Positions 27,896 to 36,473 of a DNA stretch of 43,247 nucleotides are shown here, in pieces. This DNA comes from Parcubacteria bacterium OLB19 (GTDB lineage: Bacteria; Patescibacteriota; Minisyncoccia; Phycocordibacterales; UBA918), in NCBI GenBank assembly GCA_001567365.1, contig JZEL01000014.1, positions 1 through 43,247 on the forward strand. Direction: 5' to 3'. The notes beneath the pieces are model-generated. The model ran no database searches and was not told the origin of the DNA. It saw only the letters and a list, made by a program, of their open reading frames with translations. Each line of letters begins with the position of its first letter. Position 1 is the stretch's first letter. The translations under genes and the position numbers were made by a program.

Positions 27896-29380
27896 ATGTT
27901 AAAATCCCCACATATGAACCACATAACCAATATCTTCACCATCTTCTTCTTCATCCTCACTCTCTTCACCCTCACCCCTAACACCACCAACGCTCAATCC
28001 TTCACCACCAACGACTTCATTACTACTTGGGACACTGAAAACACTGGTACCTCAGCTAATAACCAAATCACCATCCCTGGTACTGGAGCTGGGTACAGCT
28101 ACTCTATCTATTGGGAATCACTCTCTAGCTCTACTGCTACTGGTACTATTGCTACTTCTACTTCCGCTTCTCAGACCATTACTTTCCCTGAACCCGGAGA
28201 ATACAAGGTAGCTATTAAAGGTACCTATCCTCGTTTATTCTTCTTTAATAATGGAGATAAGCTCAAGATTCTTACGGTAGAACAATGGGGGAGTAATTTA
28301 TGGACTAGTATGGCGGGAGCGTTCTATGGTTGTGCTAACTTGACAGTGCCAGCGACGGATGCACCAGATTTGAGTGGAGTGACTGGTACTACACCATCTA
28401 TTTCTAGTATGTTTAGGGGAGCTACTTCCTTTAATCAATCTATTAACCACTGGGTGATAACGAGTAATATACGCGATTTGGGTTCAATGTTTCGTGATGC
28501 AACTTCCTTTAATCAACCATTGGATAATTGGAATATATCACATATAACTAATTTTAGTTATATGTTTGATGGTGCAACGTCCTTTAATCAAGACATAACC
28601 GGCTGGGATACTTCTAATGTTACAACAATGAGAAGTATGTTTAGCAACGCTACCGCCTTCGATCAAGATCTCTCTACTTGGGATGTCTCTAGTGCTACTC
28701 CAAGTTCTACCCCTGTATTTATGAACGGCCTCGAAAACATGTTCTTCAACGCCGGCCTCTCCCAATCCAACCTCGACTCCACCCTCACCGCCTGGTCTGG
28801 TCAATCCCTAAACCAGAACGTACCCTTCCACCTCGGCCTTAAAACATACAGTCAAACCGGTCAATCCGCTCTCAACGTTCTCCGTAATACATACAACTGG
28901 ACTATCACTGAACAATACCAAGCCACCTATGAAGAAGGTAATGGCTACACCTTAAGTGGTACCACCACCCAAACCCACGTTAGTCACGGTAGCACCACCA
29001 CCCCAGTCGAAGTCATCCCCGATGACAACTGTGTCTTTGAAGGTTGGAGTGATGATATCACCACTAACCCTAGAACCGACACCCTAACCGACAACCTCAC
29101 TGTCACCCCCATTGTCACCTGTCACACCAATTCCAGTGGTAGCAGTGCTAAAACCAGACACCAGAAACTATTAGAATACGGCAATACCGCTGAGGCGGAA
29201 GCTGTTAAAGATAAATGCCTCAATCCCACCAATTCTAATACCTCATCTTTAGAAACCGCTATTACTACCATTACCACCCTTGCTACCAATCCTGTTATTA
29301 CCAATAACCCACAAACTAGACAACAACTAATCTCTATATTGCAACAGTTAGTACAGATATTGGAGGTGGTGAGGGGGTAA
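27896..29380 (+). CDS. Secreted BspA/DUF285-repeat surface protein
   Basis: 494 residues. Signal peptide (about 1-34; hydrophobic IFTIFFFILTLFTL, cut near NAQS), then several DUF285-type repeats (about 160-290) with the pattern SMF..ATSFNQ.L..W, a B-repeat-like domain (about 345-410, FEGWSDDITTNPRTD) and a C-terminal helical tail LISILQQLVQILEVVRG. Such repeats occur in secreted adhesin-like proteins of many bacteria. Codon use is odd: the first 300 nt and about 28690-29160 are rich in C and poor in G, unlike neighbours. The stop lies in the second copy of the 53-bp repeat, read in another frame. An ATG at 27914 is an alternative start. Confidence 0.82.
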   Translation: MLKSPHMNHITNIFTIFFFILTLFTLTPNTTNAQSFTTNDFITTWDTENTGTSANNQITIPGTGAGYSYSIYWESLSSSTATGTIATSTSASQTITFPEPGEYKVAIKGTYPRLFFFNNGDKLKILTVEQWGSNLWTSMAGAFYGCANLTVPATDAPDLSGVTGTTPSISSMFRGATSFNQSINHWVITSNIRDLGSMFRDATSFNQPLDNWNISHITNFSYMFDGATSFNQDITGWDTSNVTTMRSMFSNATAFDQDLSTWDVSSATPSSTPVFMNGLENMFFNAGLSQSNLDSTLTAWSGQSLNQNVPFHLGLKTYSQTGQSALNVLRNTYNWTITEQYQATYEEGNGYTLSGTTTQTHVSHGSTTTPVEVIPDDNCVFEGWSDDITTNPRTDTLTDNLTVTPIVTCHTNSSGSSAKTRHQKLLEYGNTAEAEAVKDKCLNPTNSNTSSLETAITTITTLATNPVITNNPQTRQQLISILQQLVQILEVVRG

Positions 29381-29520: not shown

Positions 29521-31629
29521 ATGACTGACAAAAAAGACAACAAAAAAAGTACCTATGACGCCTCATCTATTTCAGTTTTGGAAGGTTTGGAGCCGGTAAG
29601 AAAACGACCGGGAATGTATATTGGTACTACTGGTCCTGAAGGTCTTCATCATTTAATTTGGGAAGTATTCGATAACTCACGTGACGAAGCGATGGGTGGT
29701 TTTGCAAATCGTATTGAAGTGGCACTACTGCCGGGCGGATATGTTCGTGTGGTAGATAATGGTCGTGGTATTCCAGTTGATATTCATAAACAAACCGGTG
29801 TGTCAGCTCTTGAAACTATTCTTACTGTTCTTCATGCTGGAGGTAAGTTTGGTGGAGAAGGATCTGGATATAAAGTGTCTGGTGGTCTTCATGGTGTGGG
29901 TGTGTCGGTAATGAATGCCTTATCTTCTCATGTGATAGTAGAAGTACACCGTGATGGTGGGTATCATATGCAAGAGTATGCTATCGGTGTGCCTAAATAT
30001 AAAGTTAAAAAAATTGGTCCTTCTAAATTTAAAGGTACCATTGTAACTTTCCAAGCCGACGCTACTATTTTCCCTGAAACGGCTTATGATTTTAAGAAGA
30101 TTGTGAACCACTTGCGTCAACAAGCATATCTGGTAAAGGCGATGCAATTATCTGTAATTGACGCCAGATTAGTAGCAGGAGAGGAAGCTTCTGTTCATGC
30201 TTCTGAAGATAAGGGTGTGAAGAAATTTTTAGATGGCATTAAAGGCAAACAATATCTTTCCGATGAACATTTAGAAGTTCCTCATCAACATTTTTATTTC
30301 GAAGGTGGTTTGCGTTCATTGGTGGCCTTTAACAACCACTACCAAACTCCAGTCCATAAAAATATTTTCTACATTGAAAAGAATGATGTCGATAGTGCGG
30401 TTTTGTCGGTAGAAGTTGCTCTACAATACGTTGATGATATTTCTGCTCGTATCTCTGCTTTTGCTAACAATATTTACAACCCAGAACACGGAACTCATGT
30501 AACAGGTTTTAAGACTGCGCTAACTCGTACATTAAATAACTACGCTAAGAAAAACAATTTTTTCTCAGCTAAAGAAAAAGACCCTAGTTTTACTGGTGAT
30601 GATGTACTTGAAGGTATTACTGCGGTGGTTTCAGTAAAGATGCCGGAAATTCAGTTTGAAGGACAAACTAAAGCTAAGCTAGGATCAGTTGAAGCTCGTG
30701 GTGCGGTAGAATCAGTTTTTGGTGAGGCTTTTGCGACTTTCTTAGAGGAAAATCCCGATGATGCCAAGGCGATTATCAATAAAGTGATTATCGCAGTGAA
30801 GGCCCGTAAAGCTGCAAAAGCAGCGAAGGATAGTGTGCTTAGAAAAGGTGCTTTGGAAGGCATGTCGCTACCAGGTAAGTTGGCTGATTGTCAAAGCAAA
30901 AAAGCCGAAGATTCAGAGCTTTTCATTGTAGAGGGAGACTCGGCGGGAGGTTCAGCTAAGATGGGACGAGATAGAAAGACTCAAGCTATTTTAGCTCTCC
31001 GAGGCAAGATTCTTAATGTTGAAAGAGCTCGTATCGACAAAATGTTGGCTTCCGAACAGATTAAAAATGTGGTGATTGCACTTGGTACGGCTATCGGTGA
31101 TGTGTTTGATATTACACGTCTTCGTTATCACAAGATCATCATCGCTACTGACGCTGATGTTGACGGGGCACATATTCGAACGTTGCTTTTGACTTTGTTC
31201 TATCGCTATTTCCGGCCTTTAGTGGATGGTGGATTTATCTATATCGCTCAACCACCGCTCTATAAAATTCAACGAGGTAAAGAGACACATTATGCATTTG
31301 ATGATGCGGAAAAGTTCAGGATTTTAAATGATATGGGCGTGAGCACAGCTGAAGAGGAGACGGTAGAAGAAGAAAATAACGAGGAGGAAACAGAAACCGC
31401 TAAGAAATCAACTAAGGTAAGAATTCAGCGCTATAAAGGTTTGGGTGAAATGAATGCGGAAGAATTATGGGAAACCACTATGAATCCAGAAAATCGTATC
31501 TTAAAACAGGTAACGGTTGAAGATGGATTGATGGCAGATAAGGTGTTTGATATTTTGATGGGTACCGATGTACCAAGTCGAAAGTCCTTCATTCAGTCCA
31601 ATGCTAAGATGGCTAATCTCGATATTTAG
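29521..31629 (+). CDS. gyrB: DNA gyrase subunit B
   Basis: ATPase subunit of type II topoisomerase, 702 residues. GHKL motifs: EVFDNSRDEAMGG, VVDNGRGIPV, GLHGVGVSVMNALS; Toprim region with VEGDSAGGSAKMGRDRKTQAIL and ATDADVDGAHIRTLL; C-terminal QRYKGLGEMNAEELWETTMNP. An acidic insert (about 615-640, many Glu) lies before QRYKGLGEM. ParE is the alternative, but the motifs fit GyrB; gyrA is not in the window. Confidence 0.93.
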   Translation: MTDKKDNKKSTYDASSISVLEGLEPVRKRPGMYIGTTGPEGLHHLIWEVFDNSRDEAMGGFANRIEVALLPGGYVRVVDNGRGIPVDIHKQTGVSALETILTVLHAGGKFGGEGSGYKVSGGLHGVGVSVMNALSSHVIVEVHRDGGYHMQEYAIGVPKYKVKKIGPSKFKGTIVTFQADATIFPETAYDFKKIVNHLRQQAYLVKAMQLSVIDARLVAGEEASVHASEDKGVKKFLDGIKGKQYLSDEHLEVPHQHFYFEGGLRSLVAFNNHYQTPVHKNIFYIEKNDVDSAVLSVEVALQYVDDISARISAFANNIYNPEHGTHVTGFKTALTRTLNNYAKKNNFFSAKEKDPSFTGDDVLEGITAVVSVKMPEIQFEGQTKAKLGSVEARGAVESVFGEAFATFLEENPDDAKAIINKVIIAVKARKAAKAAKDSVLRKGALEGMSLPGKLADCQSKKAEDSELFIVEGDSAGGSAKMGRDRKTQAILALRGKILNVERARIDKMLASEQIKNVVIALGTAIGDVFDITRLRYHKIIIATDADVDGAHIRTLLLTLFYRYFRPLVDGGFIYIAQPPLYKIQRGKETHYAFDDAEKFRILNDMGVSTAEEETVEEENNEEETETAKKSTKVRIQRYKGLGEMNAEELWETTMNPENRILKQVTVEDGLMADKVFDILMGTDVPSRKSFIQSNAKMANLDI

Positions 31630-31759: not shown

Positions 31760-32695
31760 TTAATTTTTTTGTAAATCAGTGTCTTTGATAGCAGGGAACG
31801 AAAGAGTGATTGTCGCTCTTTCATTTGGTTTTAGTGGGGATTGTGTATTTGAGGTAAAGTCTACATCACCAGGTAGTTTGGCAGAAAAAGTCCAAGTCTC
31901 GGAGGTTCTGGTACCAATGTTGTGTACGACAAACTGCACTGCTCCTTCCTTATTTTTGGTTATAGAATTTGTTTTTACAAACACGCCAGCGTTGTTTTTG
32001 GTACCAATCAGCAAGTTACTCAAGAGTAGGTCAGTGAAGCCGTTTGGGTTAGAAACTGGTATTTCATAGGTGTAAATGATTTCCGGAGTAGATGGTTTTG
32101 GTATGGTTGGTTTTGTACTGGTGGCAATGGGTTTCTTGATTTCTTCAGGTATATTCTCCTTTTCTTCATCAATCTTTACGATGTTACTGTTAGTAATAGA
32201 GACGGTTTTGCTTACATTGGTGTCTGGGGTTGTTTCATTTTTTCTAATATAGGCAATATTGAATTCTGCTTCAACAAAAGGAGATTTAGTAGAATCTATT
32301 TTCAACTCTATGTGATCAATTAGACCCAGATCGTGCGGTTGATTACAAGCTAGACTGGTAAAGTCTTTGTCTTTGGTTTTGAGATCAATAGCTACTCCGT
32401 CAGCACAAGTATAGCTAAAGGTAAAAGAACCAGTTTTTACCTCTTTGTTCCACCAGACCACCAACGTTTCACCGCTTTTTATAGTAGAGCTGTCGGTCAT
32501 AATCTTTAAGTCCTTATTAGCGTTATAGTTATAAACAGTATCAGCTAGAGAAGCTAATGAACTGATGGCGCTAGGGAAGAGTTTTACCACCTGCGTTGCT
32601 GACCAAACTAAAATCAATAATACAACGATCAAACTAATAAAACCGAATATCTTGTTTTGTTTAGGGTTGCTGTTTTGTCCATTTTCCGTATTCAT
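31760..32695 (-). CDS. Exported membrane-anchored protein, CARDB-like end
   Basis: 311 residues; function unknown. Polar N-terminus, one membrane helix (about 16-37, IFGFISLIVVLLILVWSA), an exported domain with two Cys, a Pro/Thr/Lys linker (KKPIATSTKPTIPKPSTPE), and a C-terminal beta domain with VVHNIGTRTSETWTFSAKLPG and SPLKPNERATITLSF, the pattern of CARDB-type Ig-like adhesion domains. Divergent from the sortase gene, with which it shares a promoter region of two inverted TTGACA boxes. Confidence 0.75.
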   Translation of the reverse strand: MNTENGQNSNPKQNKIFGFISLIVVLLILVWSATQVVKLFPSAISSLASLADTVYNYNANKDLKIMTDSSTIKSGETLVVWWNKEVKTGSFTFSYTCADGVAIDLKTKDKDFTSLACNQPHDLGLIDHIELKIDSTKSPFVEAEFNIAYIRKNETTPDTNVSKTVSITNSNIVKIDEEKENIPEEIKKPIATSTKPTIPKPSTPEIIYTYEIPVSNPNGFTDLLLSNLLIGTKNNAGVFVKTNSITKNKEGAVQFVVHNIGTRTSETWTFSAKLPGDVDFTSNTQSPLKPNERATITLSFPAIKDTDLQKN

Positions 32696-32748
32696 AATAA
32701 CGAAACGCTACTACTATTAAAAACCTTTGTCAATAGAACATTTTTAAA

Positions 32749-32777
32749 TTGACAATGACTATATATTATGTTATTAT
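32749..32777 (+). promoter_or_regulatory. Promoter of the sortase gene
   Basis: TTGACA (32749-32754), 17-nt spacer, TATTAT (32772-32777). It covers the ATG at 32768 and so rules that start out. Confidence 0.8.
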
Positions 32778-32791
32778 GTAAAGGTGATTAT

Positions 32792-33454
32792 ATGAATAAT
32801 TTCGAGTCGACAAAAATCTCAAGAGAAGTGAGGCTAAAGTTTGCTTTGGTCTCAGTTTTTGTGTTTTTGGTTAGTTATTCGCTTTTGGCTTATTTTGATT
32901 TTTTACCTGAACCAGTCGAAAATGAGGTTGAAAATACTGTTTCTGAAATTAAAGAAGCTATGGAAATAGTTTCTACAGAGCCTGTTGTGGCTACTTCAAC
33001 AGAAGAGGAAGTTGGTCAATTGCCAGAAAAAATCACCTTCAATTCTCTCAATCGTTCAGTTGCAATCCTTAATCCAACTTCAAAATCTATTCAAGATCTC
33101 GATAATGCCTTGCTTAGTGGGGTAGTTAGACATCCTGATTCTGCTATTTTGGGTCAATCTGGCACTGTTTTTATTTTGGGTCATTCTAGTTATCTACCAA
33201 AGGTAATAAATCCAAATTTCCAAGCCTTTAATGGTATTCAAAATCTAAAATGGGGAGATACAATCCGTCTCGAGTCTGAATCAAAAGTTTATGTATATAG
33301 AGTAGATAAGGTTTATAAAGCGCGTGCTACCGATACTACTGTGCCAATTGCTGGGGAAGAAAAACGACTGGTTTTAGCGACATGTAACAGCTTTGGTTCG
33401 GTTGATGATCGGTATATTGTCGAAGCGGATTTAATTGAGGTCAGAGCTTTGTAA
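32792..33454 (+). CDS. Sortase family transpeptidase
   Basis: 220 residues from ATG 32792, which has AAGGTG 5-6 nt upstream and lies downstream of the promoter. N-terminal membrane anchor (about 18-36), a Glu/Thr-rich stalk, then the sortase beta-barrel. Catalytic triad: His in FILGHSSYL (about H131), Cys in LATCNSFG (about C198), Arg in DDRYIVEA (about R207). Sortases cut LPxTG-like motifs and join the Thr to a cell-surface amine. The next gene has a VPYTG motif and is the evident substrate. The class cannot be fixed; short, class D/E-like. Confidence 0.93.
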   Translation: MNNFESTKISREVRLKFALVSVFVFLVSYSLLAYFDFLPEPVENEVENTVSEIKEAMEIVSTEPVVATSTEEEVGQLPEKITFNSLNRSVAILNPTSKSIQDLDNALLSGVVRHPDSAILGQSGTVFILGHSSYLPKVINPNFQAFNGIQNLKWGDTIRLESESKVYVYRVDKVYKARATDTTVPIAGEEKRLVLATCNSFGSVDDRYIVEADLIEVRAL

Positions 33455-33461
33455 GACTAGG

Positions 33462-33490
33462 TTGACAAAACCATAAAAATCAATTATAGT
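33462..33490 (+). promoter_or_regulatory. Promoter of the 759-residue surface protein
   Basis: TTGACA (33462-33467), 17-nt spacer, TATAGT (33485-33490). One of the best promoters in the window. The leader to the ATG is about 190 nt, T-rich, with one hairpin (ACTCTT/AAGAGT near 33618-33635); an RNA control element is possible but not shown. Confidence 0.82.
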
Positions 33491-33684
33491 AGGAGTAATT
33501 CGCTTGTTCTAACTTTTTTTTTTATTTTTCTAACTTTTTCCGTTAATTATAACTAATTTTTGGATATTTAGAATGTGATTATTGTTGTTCTTTTTTGGTG
33601 CGGTTTGTGATTTTGATTACTCTTGCGTGCAAAGAGTGTAGGTAAGAGTATAGAATTTATAAATCTCTTTATTATTTTTAAAAT

Positions 33685-35964
33685 ATGAAATTATTTTCAT
33701 CTCTAAAGCAGGTTCTACCGTTTCTATTGGTAGCCGTACTTACTTTTGGAGTTTTAAACTTCGGATCTTATGATCCTCATAACGAATTAGGAGCGCTTAC
33801 ACCAAGTAGTGCTATAGGTTTTACTATTCCTACTTTTGATGGACCAACTTCAGGTTCATCTAGTTCTGGTTCGTCATCTAGTAGCTCTGGTTCATCTTCA
33901 GGATCAAGTTCCTCAAGTAGCTCGTCATCTAGTAGCAGTTCAGGATCAAGTAGTTCGGCTATGGGTAGTTGTAAGGTAACAGCTAGCTTGACTGAAGTGT
34001 CATATGGTTCGGATATAACTATCTCTTGGACCACTTCTGGTTTTTCTACTATTACTTTGAACGGTGAGGCTGTTAGTGGTTCTTCTGGTTCAAAAACTTT
34101 CCATAACATTAAGGAAAATACTGATTATACATTGGTAGCAAAAAGCGCTGATGGTAATTCTAGTTGTACTTCAACTGTTAGGGTTAAGTGTTTACCACCA
34201 CCTCCACCGATTCCATCAACTTGTACTCTAACACCAACTACTAAGACTATTCTTTCTGGTGAATCTGTAGATCTAACTTGGACTACTTCTAACGCTGCTA
34301 GCGCTACTTTGACTGATTTTGGTACTGTAGCTCTCAGTGGAACAAAGAATACTGGGGCGTTGACTACCAATAAAACCTACACTCTTAATGTTGTCGGTAC
34401 CAACGGTCAAACCGTATCTTGTAAATCAGATATCACCGTGACTGTTACTCCACCTCCTCCAGTTATTACTTGTCAAAATAATGTAAACTTTACTATTAGT
34501 CCTAATAGTATTAAGGAAGGTGATTCAGCTACTCTAACTTGGAGTACAACTGGTATTACTGGTGTTAGTTTTGATAATGGTATAACTGCAACTGGACTTA
34601 GTGGTTCAGTGTCTGTTTCACCAAATGTATCAACTACATATACTCTAACCGCTACTAGTGGTACTTCGACTATTTCTTGTCCAGCATCATTGACGGTAGA
34701 ACGTAATAACGGTGGTGGTGGCGGTGGTGGATCATCTACTCCAACTTGTGAACTAACTGTTTCTAAGAACAAGATTACTAAAGGTACAGAGGTAAAACTA
34801 AAGTGGGAAAGTAGTCGTGCTACCAGTGTGAAATTGATTGATAGTAAGGGCAAGACTTTGGTTACTACTGAAAATCTACTAGGTGATGCCAAGACCGACT
34901 TGTACGATGGTTCAATTACTGTAAAACCAACTAGTGACACAACTTATACATTGATTGTAGAAAGAGGTTCACGTGATCGTGAATGTAAGGTAAAGGTTGA
35001 CGTTGAAGATAATGTGGTAGTGTCACAAATTCGTGATCAACAACCGTTAGTTTCTGGTATTGCCTTAACTGACGTTCCTTATACTGGTTTTGAAGCTGGT
35101 CCAATTCTAACTTTCTTGTTCTACTTTATTCTAATGTTGTGGGCTATGTATGTGGCTTACCTAATAGTGATTAGACGAAACTTGTTAGGTGGTGGATATC
35201 AACTAGCTACACCAACTGAGATAAAAGCGATTCCAGAAACTACTGGTACACAAAATGTTGTTGAAGCAACAATAGTAACTCCAGAGGTAAATAATGTTAA
35301 AGCTTCTGCTCCAGTAAATCTGCCAACTGGCATACCAGTTATTGGTTATGCAAACTATGGTACGATCGCTGGTGATCATATTGATGATGAGATGATTACA
35401 CAAATCGAAAATTATGCTCATACCCAACACGTTCTATTGTCTTCTGATGCTATTCGTCACTTCATAAATAGTACTAATAGTGGTGAAGAAAGGACTGAGG
35501 CACTTGGTCAGGTTATTAAAACTGCAAAATCTAAGTTTCCAACTGAGGACGGATGGGTGGTAGTAAATGAAACTAGGATGAAAGATTTGTGTGCAGATTT
35601 GACACCTAAGCAGTCTGAAGTAATTGTGGCCGAAAACAAAATCCCAACTGTATTACCATCAGGTTCTGGGTCATTGGCGGAAGCGATTGTTACCGGTAAC
35701 GTGGTGGCGGCTTATGAAATGATTGGTAATCGTCCAATGTTTGCTCTAGCTGATGCTGCTTCTGATCTTGATTCAGTAGTGCGTAAGCGTAAGGGTGGTA
35801 ATGAGATTATATCTGAAATGTTGCTACAAGAGACTGCAAAATTGTCTGATGAGCAATTATTGAAAATGGTAGAAGCTTTGACTGGTGCACTCGATGGTAC
35901 TTATACCGATGAGGCGTCAGCTGTAAAGATGGCTATTATGAAAGCAGTAAAAATAGTAGCGTAA
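33685..35964 (+). CDS. Ig-repeat surface protein with internal VPYTG and cytoplasmic domain
   Basis: 759 residues. Signal peptide (about 1-25); Ser/Gly linker (about 56-92, coded by mixed Ser codons); four Ig-like domains (about 95-168, 178-255, 262-340, 353-442), each with paired Cys and the S-TTYTL pattern, split by Pro or Gly runs; VPYTG at 464-468 (DNA 35074-35088); a membrane helix (about 471-495) ending in RR; then about 263 residues inside the cell, of unknown fold, with helical stretches such as LLQETAKLSDEQLLKMVEAL. VPYTG-helix-RR is a sortase sorting signal, but normally it ends the protein. It follows the sortase gene. Confidence 0.88.
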   Translation: MKLFSSLKQVLPFLLVAVLTFGVLNFGSYDPHNELGALTPSSAIGFTIPTFDGPTSGSSSSGSSSSSSGSSSGSSSSSSSSSSSSSGSSSSAMGSCKVTASLTEVSYGSDITISWTTSGFSTITLNGEAVSGSSGSKTFHNIKENTDYTLVAKSADGNSSCTSTVRVKCLPPPPPIPSTCTLTPTTKTILSGESVDLTWTTSNAASATLTDFGTVALSGTKNTGALTTNKTYTLNVVGTNGQTVSCKSDITVTVTPPPPVITCQNNVNFTISPNSIKEGDSATLTWSTTGITGVSFDNGITATGLSGSVSVSPNVSTTYTLTATSGTSTISCPASLTVERNNGGGGGGGSSTPTCELTVSKNKITKGTEVKLKWESSRATSVKLIDSKGKTLVTTENLLGDAKTDLYDGSITVKPTSDTTYTLIVERGSRDRECKVKVDVEDNVVVSQIRDQQPLVSGIALTDVPYTGFEAGPILTFLFYFILMLWAMYVAYLIVIRRNLLGGGYQLATPTEIKAIPETTGTQNVVEATIVTPEVNNVKASAPVNLPTGIPVIGYANYGTIAGDHIDDEMITQIENYAHTQHVLLSSDAIRHFINSTNSGEERTEALGQVIKTAKSKFPTEDGWVVVNETRMKDLCADLTPKQSEVIVAENKIPTVLPSGSGSLAEAIVTGNVVAAYEMIGNRPMFALADAASDLDSVVRKRKGGNEIISEMLLQETAKLSDEQLLKMVEALTGALDGTYTDEASAVKMAIMKAVKIVA

Positions 35965-35977
35965 TCACTACTAAAAG

Positions 35978-36015
35978 TTAAAAAAGCGCCGGCACGAAGT
36001 GCCGGCGCTTTTTAA
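35978..36015 (+). terminator. Terminator of the surface protein gene
   Basis: TTAAAAAAGCGCCGGCAC/GTGCCGGCGCTTTTTAA around GAA, one bulged A, T-run in the 3' arm. Confidence 0.93.
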
Positions 36016-36052
36016 TACCAAGCACCGCGCCTACGGCGCGGGGCTTGGTATT
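36014..36052. repeat. 18-bp inverted repeat without T-run
   Basis: 36014-36031 pairs with 36035-36052 (one mismatch), loop TAC. It reaches the stop of the SET gene. Neither strand has a T-run after it, so it may protect mRNA 3' ends rather than stop transcription. Confidence 0.75.
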
Positions 36053-36473
36053 ACTGCCTCTCAATTTTCTCAGTTTTGGTTTTTTTCTCCAGACACCCAA
36101 TACATTTGCAATTATCTTTACCGATGATTTCGTTGAAATAAAATTTTCCGTAGTTGTAAGTTAATTCTTCGCCAGTTTTGATGTTTCTTTTGGTATAAAT
36201 ATACACATGCTCTTCTTTATCATCTAGTTCTGGATAACAATTTGGTTTACAAGAATGATTGATATAGCGAGCCAGATTTTCTCTGCCTTTGCCATCGATT
36301 GTCCACTTATCATTCAGTTCAAATAAATATTTACCACCTCGTTTGTTGGCCTCCTCTTCAGTAATTTTCTCACCAGTGTATTCAATAATCATTTCTCCTT
36401 TTTTAAAATCACGAAGGGCAAACAATCCCAAACCACTCTGACTTTTTTTAGTTTGTACATTTTCATTTTTCAT
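36051..36473 (-). CDS. SET-domain protein (putative lysine methyltransferase)
   Basis: 140 residues, essentially a bare SET domain: GLGLFALRDFKKGEMIIEYTGE, the SAM/knot motif INHSCKPNCYPE (about 71-82), GEELTYNYG (about 102-110), and a post-SET-like CKCIGC (122-127). The family transfers methyl groups from SAM to lysines, typically histones in eukaryotes; bacterial members are mostly found in host-associated or CPR lineages. The substrate here is unknown; ribosomal or DNA-binding proteins are possible. Divergent from xfp. Confidence 0.9.
   Translation of the reverse strand: MKNENVQTKKSQSGLGLFALRDFKKGEMIIEYTGEKITEEEANKRGGKYLFELNDKWTIDGKGRENLARYINHSCKPNCYPELDDKEEHVYIYTKRNIKTGEELTYNYGKFYFNEIIGKDNCKCIGCLEKKTKTEKIERQ

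Follow-up and report, generated by a model that had tools for sequence, protein, structure and literature searches.

A probable internal sortase sorting motif followed by a predicted clamp-loader-type cytoplasmic module in a surface protein of Parcubacteria bacterium OLB19 and its relatives

The only sortase gene in the 905-kb genome of Parcubacteria bacterium OLB19 is followed by a gene for a composite protein that carries a sorting motif, VPYTG, in its middle, and whose cytoplasmic tail, on the evidence of profile comparison and structure prediction, is an ATPase-less clamp-loader module homologous to domains II (lid) and III (collar) of DnaX, in that order. Although it is not C-terminal, the motif is very probably a target of the sortase, with cleavage predicted from sequence conservation. 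The new element is a sortase-substrate pair with a clamp-loader-type cytoplasmic module; sortases in CPR bacteria were already known. All evidence is computational, and the genomes are draft metagenome assemblies. The window, that is, the whole stretch of 43,247 nucleotides that was analyzed (contig JZEL01000014.1), contained the following features at the locus.

29521 to 31629, forward strand: gyrB, an open reading frame and the conserved left neighbor
31760 to 32695, reverse strand: divergent CARDB-like protein, a single membrane helix at its N-terminus (PF07705, E = 0.022, below the cut-off)
32749 to 32777, forward strand: promoter-like site TTGACA-17-TATTAT, matching 11/12, before the sortase
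32768 to 33454, forward strand: sortase (PF04203, E = 5e-18)
33462 to 33490, forward strand: promoter-like site TTGACA-17-TATAGT, matching 11/12, before the substrate
33685 to 35964, forward strand: composite sortase substrate of 759 residues, one uninterrupted open reading frame
33967 to 34998, forward strand: four Cys-initiated Ig-like repeats, approximately residues 95 to 438, extracellular, as read from the sequence
35074 to 35088, forward strand: VPYTG sorting motif, residues 464 to 468, from alignments of homologues
35104 to 35178, forward strand: membrane helix and Arg-Arg, residues 474 to 498 (helix approximately 474 to 496, RR 497 and 498)
35197 to 35376, forward strand: cytoplasmic linker, residues 505 to 564, probably disordered (pLDDT below 50 over most of it)
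35377 to 35607, forward strand: lid-like domain, residues 565 to 641, predicted homologue of DnaX domain II (AlphaFold, Foldseek, VIA-align, HHalign)
35665 to 35961, forward strand: collar-like domain, residues 661 to 759, predicted homologue of DnaX domain III (Z 11.9 and rmsd 2.2 Å over 98 residues to 1jr3_B; HHalign)
35981 to 36013, reverse strand: strong GC-rich, terminator-like hairpin after the substrate gene

The substrate began with a hydrophobic stretch, recognized by hydropathy and reading only, and a Ser-rich stretch. The Ig-like repeats, placed by eye, started near residues 95, 179, 262, and 354, and a Pfam search of the protein returned no Ig hit above the cut-off. The sequence around the predicted cleavage site was ALTDVPYTGFEAGP. 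A preliminary description of this DNA had proposed that VPYTG, a membrane helix, and RR lie in the middle of the protein, and this was borne out in the uninterrupted frame. The helix is followed by positively charged residues, as in a sorting signal, whereas its position is not C-terminal, with 261 residues running from RR to the stop on the cytoplasmic side.

The order of the neighborhood was gyrB, CARDB-like gene, sortase, substrate, and thrS. The sortase was confidently recognized, and its best NCBIfam model was that of class D (E = 2e-12), yet its score of 47 bits falls short of the required 140, and it does not qualify as class D. The near-consensus promoters previously assigned to sortase and substrate proved to be the best two such sites of the stretch, while the total number of promoter-like sites was at chance. 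The first of them overlaps the listed ATG of the sortase, so translation may begin at the in-frame ATG at 32792. The divergent protein described before as CARDB-like was likewise found as an open reading frame, and its homologues adjoined the sortase in most related loci as a conserved third member of the module, but its family assignment stayed below the cut-off. Just downstream, at 36051 to 36473 on the reverse strand, the window encodes a SET-domain protein (PF00856, E = 2.5e-29), a family uncommon for such a small bacterial genome. Just upstream of gyrB (27896 to 29380, forward strand) lies an exported DUF285/PARCEL-repeat surface protein that resembles surface proteins of Mycoplasma and Listeria.

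The arrangement recurred in Kaiserbacteria and relatives, a group of tiny uncultured bacteria. Homologues of the tail were detected by the tail search in 28 of 59 relatives and sortase matches by the sortase search in 44 of the 59; in the shared module, a CARDB-like gene diverges from the sortase, which is followed by a gene whose product combines a signal, a variable Ig-like region, [VI]PYTG, a helix, and the tail. A profile of sorting signal plus tail matched 102 of 297 genomes of the order, and in the source genome the substrate was the sole match to the sorting-signal profile. The collar part, and with it the recurrence of the arrangement beside sortases in other genomes, was found in approximately 15 families of the order among the matches listed; the class-wide spread of the tail rests on a sample. 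At class level, tail matches in G234 and G152 were dismissed as chance similarities, and by reading these proteins look like RmuC. Among 89 fetched stretches of related loci, gyrB and thrS were each present in 53, so the genomic place is probably ancestral.

Strong conservation was observed for the motif. In an alignment of 441 columns and 23 homologues, some of them only 20 to 25% identical, the P, T, and G of the motif made up 3 of only 10 invariant columns, which argues that VPYTG is not a chance occurrence. PxTG was intact in all 55 substrates found with a sortase (54 loci), and the His, Cys, and Arg previously reported as intact in the adjacent sortase (H139, C206, and R215) were invariant in 54/54 orthologues. 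Four genomes, G429, G404, G435, and G473, kept the tail without a sortase: no sortase match was obtained in them even at an E value of 0.01, an absence judged at 91 to 93% completeness, and the fetched stretches around their tail genes also held none. In these genomes the motif was absent (G429) or read PYIG (G404), LPEVG (G435), or LPETS (G473). Fisher's exact test of motif against sortase presence gave 2.4e-6, a value that overstates the evidence since G435 and G473 belong to the same genus and approximately three independent losses are represented. Proteins with helix and tail but no VPYTG, named beforehand as the case that would speak against a sorting signal, therefore do exist, but exactly where the sortase is gone, which strengthens the sorting claim and weakens the claim that cleavage acts as a signal. 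The simplest reading of a motif intact beside the sortase and lost or decayed without it is that it is kept for use by the sortase. Within the genus, 31 of 38 genomes yielded the substrate signal. Among the remaining seven, G006 and G022 had no orthologous sortase, and in G008, G011, G012, G026, and G030 the sortase lay close to the edge of its contig, so the assembly may lack the gene that follows.

For the cytoplasmic part, structure prediction had been proposed in the preliminary description, and the AlphaFold model of residues 445 to 759 contained two confident domains behind a disordered linker. When this model was searched with Foldseek, the best 21 PDB matches were all clamp-loader chains, the first with an E value of 3.8e-4. 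Superposition of both domains on residues 178 to 360 of E. coli DnaX with VIA-align gave a Z of 12.2 with an overall rmsd of 13.6 Å, which is read as a difference at the hinge because the domains fit well singly: the collar alone matched DnaX at 2.2 Å over 98 residues (Z 11.9), and the lid alone fitted RuvB at 2.1 Å over 71 residues. A second model, for the tail of the G429 protein, which is 20% identical to the window tail, had E. coli DnaX chains in all 28 of its top Foldseek matches and superposed on E. coli DnaX with a Z of 15.5 (collar alone, 1.9 Å over 109 residues, Z 15.2). The two models were built from input alignments with some members in common and are therefore not wholly independent.

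Profile comparison pointed to the same relationship. HHalign of 55 tails against 34 DnaX sequences, with the DnaX of the same genome as the reference, gave 95% probability and a P value of 2.9e-8 over 151 co-linear columns. The best of 40 column-shuffled controls reached a P value of 0.003 and a score of 29 versus 63, and reversed and sortase controls gave no match. These controls matter because an earlier comparison with a narrow DnaX alignment had been weak (P = 0.014) and reached 2.9e-8 only with deeper alignments. The matched region begins at DnaX residue 158 (HHalign) or 176 to 178 (structure), past the ATPase domain, and the Pfam search of the window proteins returned no AAA hit for an AAA+ ATPase domain I; the tail thus appears to be a lid and collar without the motor. 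Its similarity to known families is remote: the window tail hit no family in Pfam or NCBIfam, other tails gave weak hits only, with replication factor C as the best (E values of 0.009 and 0.022) and gamma/tau next to it (0.095), and a sequence search of PDB chains with the tail found nothing significant.

A fold common to tail and clamp loader is no proof of a common function. One explanation takes the homology literally and supposes that the tail joins or recruits the clamp loader and so ties the replisome or chromosome to a surface structure. The match is specifically to clamp-loader domains II and III, with DnaX the best, and the locus adjoins gyrB. That neighbor may however be plain synteny, the tail is only 13% identical to the DnaX of its own genome, so its interfaces may not match, and the stub-only genome G001 still has DnaX; we regard this explanation as rather unlikely. 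A bolder proposal, which we consider doubtful, is that a physical link joins surface anchoring to the replication machinery or to another AAA+ ring, with the tethered collar entering or mimicking a clamp-loader-type ring and sortase cleavage switching the coupling. If true, the display of surface proteins would be coordinated with DNA replication or another ring-driven process.

The clamp loader of the genus itself looks reduced, with a DnaX of approximately 345 residues that lacks the tau tail (L226, G000:C27:11000-15000, and relatives), delta-prime-like frames of only approximately 200 to 258 residues, and a delta not recognized by PF06144. Substitution of the tail for a missing clamp-loader subunit was considered and is not supported, because the state of delta and delta-prime was the same in stub-only (G001, G018) and tail-less (G022) genomes.

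The fusion of substrate and tail was itself conserved. In 34 proteins with motif, lid, and collar, from many families, the fused frame was open, and 242 to 387 residues, including the folded domain pair, followed the motif. This settles in favor of a real cytoplasmic domain the question of whether a frameshift, an overlooked stop codon, or an assembly fault had joined two genes. Such an artefact could be suspected from G013 and G025, where the tail is a separate frame after an A9 run, but it is refuted by the conserved fusion and is almost certainly wrong for the window protein. In these two genomes (G025, L075:1335-1400; G013, L081, reverse strand, 1130-1070) the run stands at the same place, one extra A would restore the fused frame, and the tail frames are 57% identical. 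The common A9 run may be a slippage site that yields two products. In G016 (L079:4380-4760) the substrate frame is broken just past the helix and the tail continues in another frame; no long homopolymer is present there, and the break is perhaps decay or an assembly error.

Natural variants indicated that substrate and tail can be separated. In several relatives only one module or a stub of 30 to 110 residues remained while the motif was intact, so anchoring itself seems not to need the full tail. This bears on the proposal that the folded tail serves only to keep the C-terminal end in the cytoplasm and to retain the precursor until it is processed by the sortase. The tail does follow the helix and RR directly, and sorting signals are known to halt translocation (PMC4617865). 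A helix with a short tail nevertheless suffices elsewhere in the genus (37 residues after the motif in L218, L219, and L222), and a passive stop would need neither the approximately 69% identity of the collar within the genus nor survival without the sortase. We therefore judge it distinctly improbable.

In three genomes of the genus, G004, G274, and G345, the gene following the sortase encoded a two-helix membrane hairpin with lid and collar and with neither Ig part nor motif, and the Ig-VPYTG protein was a separate gene elsewhere, ending canonically 37 residues after the motif. Such tails, encoded apart, behave as an independent module and not merely as a fragment released by cleavage. A similar hairpin tail protein lay beside the CARDB-like gene in G429, which has no sortase. 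In G404 (L286:6802-8001), which has no sortase, one protein joined a CARDB-like ectodomain to a degenerate motif (APYIG), a helix, and the lid; in the manner of a Rosetta stone, this fusion connects two components of the module at the level of sequence. At the other extreme, a G364 protein (L299:5377-6219) had only approximately 18 extracellular residues after a likely signal peptide, followed by VPYTG, helix, and collar domain. These gene arrangements show the tail to be a separate module that stays with the locus and is mostly fused to the substrate.

The preliminary description had derived the role of the tail from its being freed by cleavage, so that a helix-tail piece parted from the Ig part would report successful anchoring to the cytoplasm. 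The sensing of C-peptides after SrtA cleavage in Streptococcus gordonii, as summarized in PMC11502775 and PMC7763024, provides a precedent; in the G364 substrate, nearly devoid of an extracellular part, the tail seems to be what matters, and the separate tail protein of G004, G274, and G345 resembles the piece after the Thr-Gly bond on an anchor of its own. The same three genomes uncouple the tail from the motif, however, its retention in four genomes without sortase and intact motif is left unexplained, and no output domain or regulator was recognized. As stated, this role is unsupported, and we consider it unlikely.

The explanation we tentatively prefer, at slightly less than even confidence, is that the substrate is built on a membrane-bound, ATPase-less clamp-loader module, the tail being a collar-type scaffold that organizes the assembly of surface proteins. 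Its footing is the observed anatomy, predicted fold, homology, conservation, linkage, and joint loss of sortase and motif. The Ig part would be exported by Sec, the helix with RR would halt in the membrane, and the tail would fold in the cytoplasm as a DnaX-type lid and collar. The neighboring sortase would then cleave between Thr and Gly of VPYTG, linking the Ig part to the wall and leaving helix, lid, and collar in the membrane. There, like the DnaX collar, the tail may keep multiple copies or partner proteins in contact beneath the membrane, and it may show the sortase and the CARDB-like partner where assembly is to take place. The persistence of the tail without sortase or motif, and as a separate gene in some lineages, suggests that it most likely serves a permanent function.

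The natural series of full tail, half tail, stub, separate gene, and lost sortase allows direct tests of what a cytoplasmic domain does behind a sortase signal, in ultra-small bacteria about whose surface biology little is known. To our knowledge, no membrane protein had previously been found to carry a clamp-loader lid and collar that lack the ATPase. In a literature search whose scope excluded most subscription journals, no CPR sortase substrate with such a layout, no internal sorting signal ahead of a large cytoplasmic domain, and no Kaiserbacteria sortases were found reported. Sortases occur in more than half of CPR bacteria, with fam000526 as a CPR sortase family (PMC6744442).

The substrate resembles LPXTG-type substrates of Gram-positive bacteria in its predicted export, Ig-like ectodomain, P-x-T-G, helix, positive residues, and adjacent sortase gene. 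The textbook sorting signal, however, is C-terminal, with only a positively charged tail after it (PMC12445088), whereas here it is internal and followed by a folded domain pair across the 34 homologues. Genome searches that demand a C-terminal signal therefore miss a whole class of substrates. With DnaX (gamma/tau) the tail shares lid and collar, in equal order and fold and with remote sequence similarity, but it lacks the ATPase domain, is membrane-tethered, is joined to a surface protein, and has diverged far from the DnaX of its own genome. For Streptococcus gordonii, Hall et al. (2019), as cited in PMC11502775 and PMC7763024, described an intramembrane two-component system that senses the C-peptides remaining once SrtA has cut. 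The likeness is that what stays behind in the membrane after sortase cleavage could act in its own right; there it is a short hydrophobic peptide, whereas here it would be a large folded domain pair that is also present without a sortase.
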